64,000 nucleotides of DNA. Origin: Deltaproteobacteria bacterium. Lineage in GTDB: Bacteria > Myxococcota > Myxococcia > Myxococcales > Anaeromyxobacteraceae. The notes beneath the pieces are model-generated. The model saw only the letters and a list, made by a program, of their open reading frames with translations, was not told where the DNA came from and made no database searches. Both the position numbers and the translations under genes were made by a program. Location of the stretch: positions 496,001-560,000 of the forward strand of contig JACRMN010000012.1 in NCBI GenBank assembly GCA_016214955.1, in the 5' to 3' direction. Positions 28,579 to 29,540 of the stretch are shown piece by piece. Position 1 is the first letter of the stretch, and every line of letters starts with the position of its first letter.

Positions 28579-29375
28579 CGAAGCTCGCGCCGGAGCAGCG
28601 GCCGGTGTTCGCGGCGGCCATCTTCACGGGGTTCCGCAAGGGCGAGCTGTGCGGGCTCCGGAAGGACGACGTGGACCTGGTGCGCCGGCTCCTGGTCGCG
28701 CGGCGCTCCTACGAGCGGCCATTCCCGAAGAGCAAGAAGCAGCGGGTGGTGGCGATCCCGGAGGAGTTCGTTCCGTTCATCACGTACGCGCTCCGGGCGA
28801 CGAAGGGGCCGTGGCTCTTCCCCGACGAGACCGGCGCGATGCGGAACAAGACCTGGCAGCCGGAGGACGTGCTGCGGCGCGCGCTCAAGCGGGCGGGGAT
28901 CGTCACCGGGTACACGCACGTGTGCCGCCGGAAGACGTGCCGCTTCAGCGAGGAGCGGGAGGACGCGGAGATCCGGCCGTGCCCGCGCTGTGGGTTCAAG
29001 CTCTGGCCGAAGGGGAAGGTCCGGGAGATCCGCTTCCACGACCTCCGGCACACCTACGCGAGCGTGCTCCTCATGCTCGGCGCGCGGCTCGTCTCCGTGC
29101 AGAAGCTGCTCGGCCACTCGGATCCGAAGATCACCGAACGGCGGTACGGCCACCTGCTCCCGGACTTCATGAAGTCGGAGGTGGACCGGCTGCGGTTCGG
29201 GATCGACCAGCTCGCGCCGACCGCAGGGGCGCCCCTCGACTCCGCCGCGCTTCGCGCGGCTACGCTCGGGGCGAGCGGGGCGAGCGGGGATGGGGGGAGC
29301 TCGCGGTTCGACAGGCTCACCGCGAGCGGGAGAACAGGCAGCGATTCGCCAGACTTCGCGGCCGCTGGGAGCAGC

Positions 29376-29396
29376 CTTGGTATCCCCTTGGTATCC
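29376..29396. repeat. tandem CTTGGTATCC repeat, right island end
   Basis: Exact copy, same orientation, of the left-end tandem repeat at 19011-19031. It lies inside the 3' extension of the integrase frame, 51 bases before the attR core. Likely integrase arm-type or excisionase sites. Confidence 0.6.
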
Positions 29397-29417
29397 GCCC
29401 CCGCCGCCCAAAAAGCT

Positions 29418-29458
29418 GAGGCCGGGACTCCACCGGTTTCCCGTGAAGTCCCGGCCTC
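29418..29458 (-). terminator. Rho-independent terminator of the tRNA-Val/tRNA-Asp operon
   Basis: Reading the minus strand, a perfect 12-bp stem (GAGGCCGGGACT with AGTCCCGGCCTC, 17-base loop) is followed by AGC and five T residues (complement of 29410-29414). It lies six bases beyond the tRNA-Asp CCA. Because it is inside the island boundary it was probably brought by the element to restore termination. Confidence 0.85.
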
Positions 29459-29508
29459 TGTACTGGCGGGGTGTAGGGGACTCGAACCCCTGGCCTCCGG
29501 CGTGACAG
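29447..29508. repeat. attR: 62-bp core within intact tRNA-Asp
   Basis: Identical to 18833-18894. It supplies the 3' half of the functional tRNA-Asp together with the right arm of its terminator. Copies diverge right after the anticodon loop, which places the strand exchange at or before that point. Confidence 0.9.
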
Positions 29509-29540
29509 GCCGGCGTTATAACCGACTTAACTAACACCCC
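29464..29540 (-). tRNA. tRNA-Asp (GTC)
   Basis: On the minus strand the acceptor GGGGTGT pairs with ACACCCC. The anticodon stem CCGGC/GCCGG encloses the loop CTGTCAC with anticodon GTC. The T arm is AGGGG-TTCGAGT-CCCCT, the discriminator is G and the CCA end is encoded (29464-29466). It is a complete cloverleaf. Its 3' half is the island attachment site. Co-transcribed after tRNA-Val with an 11-base spacer. Confidence 0.95.

Follow-up and report, generated by a model that had tools for sequence, protein, structure and literature searches.

The window that we analysed (the whole 64,000-nt stretch, G000:C26:496001-560000, from a source genome of 5.3 Mb) contains a 62-nt exact direct repeat at 18833-18894 and 29447-29508, which bounds an element at tRNA-Asp(gtc). 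The features of this element and of its right flank are:

18833..18894, + strand: attL core, the left copy of the 62-nt exact repeat; partial tRNA-Asp, antisense
18895..19235, + strand: element-side half of the split fusion (linker and HTH, in integrase phase); HTH ORF 18417-19235
19011..19032, + strand: candidate arm-type site, P' side; 22-nt repeat CTTGGTATCCCCTTGGTATCCG, putative arm
19065..19214, + strand: HTH_17 domain, profile match at P0002 residues 217-267
27743..28582, + strand: IS3-type transposase remnant (HTH_Tnp_1 and truncated rve), joined to the integrase fragment
28581..29200, + strand: tyrosine integrase fragment; catalytic part retained, residues 1-180 of the intact relative missing
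29376..29397, + strand: candidate arm-type site, P side; second copy of the 22-nt repeat CTTGGTATCCCCTTGGTATCCG, within the 3' coding end of the integrase, putative arm
29447..29508, + strand: attR core, the right copy of the 62-nt exact repeat
29464..29540, - strand: tRNA-Asp(gtc), the integration target, its 3' part overlapped by the core
29509..29534, + strand: host-derived integrase tail GRRYNRLN and stop, antisense to tRNA-Asp

The integrase frame (ORF 28605-29534) crosses the attR core without a stop and ends 8 codons beyond it, and the HTH frame (ORF 18417-19235) crosses the attL core, also without a stop, in the identical phase. In the window and its relatives the att core lies inside the integrase ORF, and in the window HTH_17 lies on the C-terminal side beyond the core, as in the form carried by Mx9. 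A previous, sequence-only reading had claimed that the core-to-core spacing is a multiple of three, that the two frames share a phase at the core and join without a stop, and that the integrated integrase stops a few codons past the core. We found all of this to be correct: the spacing is 10,614 = 3 x 3,538, the joined frame is stop-free, and the codons past the core are the eight given above.

Two further observations were made at the element's ends. By eye, a terminator-like hairpin adjoins both cores (18804-18845 and 29418-29459), with conserved stems and diverged loops. The cargo beside the HTH (19312-20708) encodes a radical SAM protein at 19312-20292 and, from 20292 to 20705, a DUF6375 protein.

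The integrase in the window is broken, a point that the sequence-only reading overlooked. Aligned with the intact integrase of a relative, L053 (Anaeromyxobacter sp. RBG_16_69_14), it begins to match at residue 181 of 471, with 67% identity, and residues 1-180 are gone. Because these residues are missing, the window copy can encode neither a complete Int nor an Int-HTH fusion, and we regard it as a decayed member of the Mx8/Mx9 type; the proposal of a working recombination switch in the window fails on the same loss. Judged by its sequence, this copy is a relic, a fossil of the arrangement without a working switch. Next to it, an IS66 transposase (26125-27924) overlaps the start of the IS3-type ORF (27743-28582), which is itself cut where the integrase fragment begins.

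Phase and open frame across related elements

The L053 sequence, which is that of G013:C44 (100% match), carries a complete 471-aa integrase ORF at tRNA-Asp that covers the part missing in the window. Its frame passes through the core to a tail of the window's kind, leaving the catalytic domain in its entirety on the attR side. A second contig of the same genome, G013 contig C28, contains a core, a 23-nt arm-like repeat shared with the L053 end and an HTH in the matching frame; it was taken as the other end of the L053/G013 element. Relatives of the integrase are present in at least 93 of 195 Myxococcota genomes (E <= 1e-20) and matches to the HTH profile in at least 91 of 195 (E <= 1e-8), both counts being lower bounds from candidates scored in part.

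To ask whether related elements also join in phase and open, as the sequence-only reading had suggested checking, we assembled a test set of integrase/HTH pairs. These were chosen by eye from a subset of the candidates, with both genes on one contig and strand and the HTH upstream of the integrase (G013 spans two contigs); for the candidate G076 the sequence covered is the int side only. Phase played no part in the choice; the HTH profile came from ends first seen beside such integrases. The set comprises 41 rows for 39 elements; the two extra rows are second copies of an HTH. A core was called where a repeat of at least 13 nt overlapped an ARAGORN tRNA, as was the case in 33 of the 41 rows, with targets among tRNA-Asp, Gly (ccc, gcc), Arg (ccg, acg, gcg), Pro (cgg, ggg), Met and Val. 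The eight rows lacking a tRNA-overlapping repeat were left out (G093, G150, G036:C120, G183, G063:C156, G060, G090:C2b and G046:C68). Six of these have some repeat and the remaining two none; the best repeat was in phase in 6/6, with those of G060 and G063:C156 looking non-tRNA-like. At L185/L186 (G183) and L172 (G150) the repeat, by eye, follows the tRNA sense strand, and the int/HTH join is still in phase.

We found that integrase and HTH share a phase in 30 of the 33 tRNA-core pairs, and that 28 of the 33 are both in phase and open (binomial p 8e-12 against one third for phase). Because the rows are related, integrases were clustered at 60% identity; 17 of 19 clusters were mostly in phase. 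Counted from the T-loop, the integrase frames are distributed 15/9/9, so that all three antisense frames are used, and for 5 of the 10 tRNA types two different frames occur, each matched by the HTH. From these two counts we conclude that the tRNA does not dictate the frame. When partners were shuffled 100,000 times under this frame count, 12.3 of 33 were in phase on average and 25 at most, so that 30 was never reached; counting instead from the ARAGORN tRNA end (13/13/7; shuffled mean 11.7, maximum 25) depends on the called tRNA end and was not used. The linkers also favor the HTH frame, which contains 3 stops (30/33 open) as against 52 in the two other sense frames (30/66 open; Fisher p 6e-6). 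Since 30 of 66 off-frame linkers are open too, a single open join in GC-rich DNA is weak evidence. The case rests on the phase of the relatives, and in this family the arrangement is not a chance product of high GC content. Together, these results support the expectation that related elements are in phase and open.

Stops or phase breaks between integrase and HTH, which would speak against a fusion, were seen in few rows. Three of the 33 are out of phase, namely G134:C7, which is open, and G111:C168 and G091:C7b, which contain stops; two in-phase joins contain one stop each (G064:C1 and G062:C10). In all three out-of-phase rows the arm-like repeats are in phase, as if a frameshift had occurred between repeat and core. 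In G009, the HTH is frameshifted. Across the 33 rows, the host-encoded tail of the integrase runs from 0 to 98 codons past the core.

We also assessed nine loci at which int, core and HTH adjoin on one contig. Four read through: G019:C6, G019:C52, G052:C129 (with an integrase fragment) and G194:C165 (its HTH cut by the contig end). Five do not: G018:C199, G023:C124, G046:C68, G140:C276 and G018:C34. Among the four that read through, G019:C6 is a natural single ORF of 544 aa in the order Int-core-HTH. A terminal overlap, as expected of a circular form, was found in 0 of 9 contigs tested, and no circle was seen.

The linkers ranged in pN/pS from 0.27 to 1.28, with 27 of 33 comparisons between 0.6 and 1.1, indicating weak amino-acid constraint; what is conserved is thus the frame, and not the linker sequence. 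Selection on linker amino acids, considered as support for the fusion, was weak by this measure and was dropped.

In 20 of the 33 rows, a 14-24 nt repeat is present once before the core and once after it. The int-side copy lies 65-76 nt from the core in 13 of the 20 and the HTH-side copy 113-129 nt in 18 of the 20; the two copies are in phase in 17 of the 20, and the HTH_17 domain comes after the P' repeat. By sequence and position, these repeats look like P and P' arm sites.

Alternative accounts of the phase and of the HTH

The HTH could be an independent gene at the element's end, with its own start in the integrated state, so that the shared phase would be left from an ancestral fusion. 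In-frame GTG or TTG codons are present in 28 of 33 linkers and ATG in six, as such a gene would have, but G056:C71 has none of the three between its core and its HTH match. Similarly, the barely constrained linkers and the five of nine contiguous loci without read-through fit an independent gene, whereas the persistence of the phase through changes of tRNA and of reading frame does not: the cluster G061/G062/G063:C228/G090/G091/G121 uses both tRNA-Met and tRNA-Arg and keeps the phase. The Mx9 Int, moreover, is deposited as one fused ORF. We consider this account unlikely.

A second possibility, put forward by the sequence-only reading, is that the att-linked HTH acts as the excisionase, joined to Int while the element is circular and freed on integration. 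The att-linked HTH is indeed HTH_17/Xis-like in sequence, and the HTH profile has a single match in the PDB at E <= 0.01, chain 4j2n_A, Gp37, which we take to be a mycobacteriophage Xis. Yet in 24 of the 37 elements examined another, Xis-like HTH is encoded no more than 800 nt upstream of where the integrase match begins, and its absence from the other 13 says little because some of these have only partial integrase matches. When att-linked and upstream HTHs were placed on a tree, a single label change separated them, as compared with a mean of 19.6 when labels were shuffled, and the two HTHs within one element are 31% alike, the same as any att/upstream pair (31%). Since the two sets separate on the tree and same-element pairs are no more alike, the att-linked HTH forms a class of its own. 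Given the separate upstream Xis-like HTH and the different clade, it is probably not the excisionase, and we judge that role to be quite improbable. These comparisons suggest that the att-linked HTH is more likely a DNA-binding module of the circular-form Int. The earlier proposal of a recombination-controlled Int-HTH fusion is thus upheld in part: the in-phase and open relatives support the fusion, while its description as carrying an excision factor, like the working switch in the window, is not supported.

Alternatively, the phase could be set not by translation but by the geometry of the attP DNA, that is, by the spacing of arms and core. The similar core distances of the repeats in 20 of 33 rows speak for this account; the distance from core to HTH, however, varies from 148 to 317 nt although 30 of the 33 rows share a phase, and the int frames differ relative to the T-loop, which makes it very doubtful. 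Chance, by which long open frames common in GC-rich DNA would join in phase one time in three and the window's join would be meaningless, is plausible for the window alone, as the open off-frame linkers indicate, but is scarcely credible against the phase count (its rows partly related), the clusters, the partner shuffles and the depletion of stops in the HTH frame.

We consider it probable that, taken as a whole, the window holds the decayed remains of a tRNA-Asp-integrated element, belonging to a type widespread in myxobacteria whose integrase gene contains attP and is cut short of an HTH_17 domain when the element integrates.

Relation to known integrases and proposed mechanism

Integrases altered by their own integration have been described in several systems. 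Phage Mx8 targets tRNA-Asp. Its attP lies inside int, and integration exchanges a C-terminus of 112 residues for one of 13, according to the passages on it in PMC6070905 and PMC4701971. The altered integrase is described in one of these as less active (PMC4701971) and in the other as modified in specificity but not inactivated (PMC6070905). The Mx8 IntP thus resembles the window type in carrying attP within int and in having its C-terminus replaced on integration. We found no match between the Mx8 Int C-terminus and HTH_17, and Mx8 differs in that its HTH_17 protein, Uoi, is encoded by a separate gene at the start of int.

The Int of Mx9 (AAP78666) shares the order of parts. It comprises 548 aa with HTH_17 at 489-537. 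Ahead of the HTH, still within int, the stretch 2000-2044 of AY247757 is 100% identical over 42-45 nt to the 5' part of tRNA-Gly(ccc), as seen in many of the listed genomes. From these sequence matches it follows that the Mx9 attP would lie at the tRNA-Gly-identical stretch inside int; the passage of PMC6070905 on Mx9 describes a similar principle of integration between specific sites and gives no attP position. Like the window type, Mx9 Int has its catalytic domain, a tRNA-identical stretch and a C-terminal HTH_17 in one ORF. It differs in that its stretch matches the 5' part of the tRNA, as compared with the 3' part in the window type, in its distance (26% identity to the L053 integrase), and in belonging to a phage as opposed to the broken island of the window.

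Beyond the phages of Myxococcus type, the archaeal SSV-type 'suicidal' integrases have their recombination site within the integrase gene, which integration fragments; the passages of PMC8371274 on them hold that this precludes excision without an intact gene, and call self-disrupting recombinases exclusively archaeal. The latter statement is qualified by the Mx8 type. The window type differs from SSV in that it loses no more than the C-terminal DNA-binding domain, its catalytic part remaining undivided on one side: in L053/G013, integration leaves the catalytic domain unfragmented on the attR side. Serine-integrase ICEs in streptococcal rumA also have att inside the integrase gene and exchange its C-terminus on integration (PMC4701971). 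They differ in using a serine recombinase and a protein-coding target, and the passage on them mentions no HTH domain.

The principle is therefore not new: for Mx8, an attP site within int and the exchange of the C-terminus have been published (in the passages of PMC6070905 and PMC4701971 cited above), and Mx9 Int shows the same order of parts, HTH included. In the literature searched, a body that lies outside the primary Mx8 and Mx9 papers, we found no description of a conserved HTH domain that many tRNA elements lose from the C-terminus of their integrase on integration. The window type is best filed as an HTH variant of the Mx8/Mx9-type self-altering integrases. Among phages, 103 records match the L053 integrase, with a C-terminal HTH looked for in Mx4, Mx8 and Mx9; the Mx9 Int as query returned two Mx9 and two distant Mx4 records. 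A search of viral contigs with the fused-protein pattern matched 15 stretches, of which 0 were confirmed as relatives, and of 19 plasmid records that matched, none did so over more than 80% of the fusion.

Beyond the established anatomy, with its conserved phase, open frames, one natural single ORF and the same order in Mx9, we propose the following mechanism. In the circular form, one ORF would run through the integrase, the P arm, the tRNA core, the P' arm and the C-terminal HTH_17. Integration would cut this ORF at the core, such that the integrase retains the catalytic domain and acquires a new end read from the antisense strand of the tRNA, while the HTH would be left at the far end of the element without its enzyme. 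The HTH-bearing protein is most likely the integration form, its HTH binding an extra site near the P' arm. Loss of the HTH on integration would make the prophage form behave differently until excision restores the fusion. We infer that the fusion protein is made, that the HTH has this target and that it affects direction; for the effect of HTH loss on direction, Mx8 provides the analogy.

These findings extend the Mx8/Mx9 arrangement to many Myxococcota elements, with in-phase joins at tRNA-Asp, Gly, Arg, Pro, Met and Val in three antisense frames. What they add to a principle known from phages is a conserved, clipped HTH domain, found in many elements. In such elements nature would have separated the circular and integrated forms of one recombinase, making the control of integrase direction testable through deletion of one small domain. 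A further suggestion is that gene-prediction programs may place the end of the integrase wrongly and misread the orphan HTH when the copy is integrated. A wider reading, which in our estimate could equally prove right or wrong, is that these are a class of bacterial tRNA-targeting elements with a self-editing recombinase: integration would remove its DNA-binding domain so that the form of the enzyme records whether the element is in or out, the change of isoform together with an ordinary Xis would set direction, and tandem arrays would fuse an integrase to its neighbour's HTH.

Two loci with more than one core or element were also seen. At L077 (G017:C119, 3058-4299), an integrase that by eye is Mx8 Int-like continues in one 414-aa frame through a tRNA-Asp core and into an HTH that belongs to another element; the locus is apparently a tandem array containing a chimeric fusion. 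L065 (G019:C52, 1-8650) contains, in order, a core, an HTH, an element, an integrase, a core and a second HTH, the last three forming one 599-aa frame; it resembles a tandem arrangement, with the integrase joined to an HTH other than its own.
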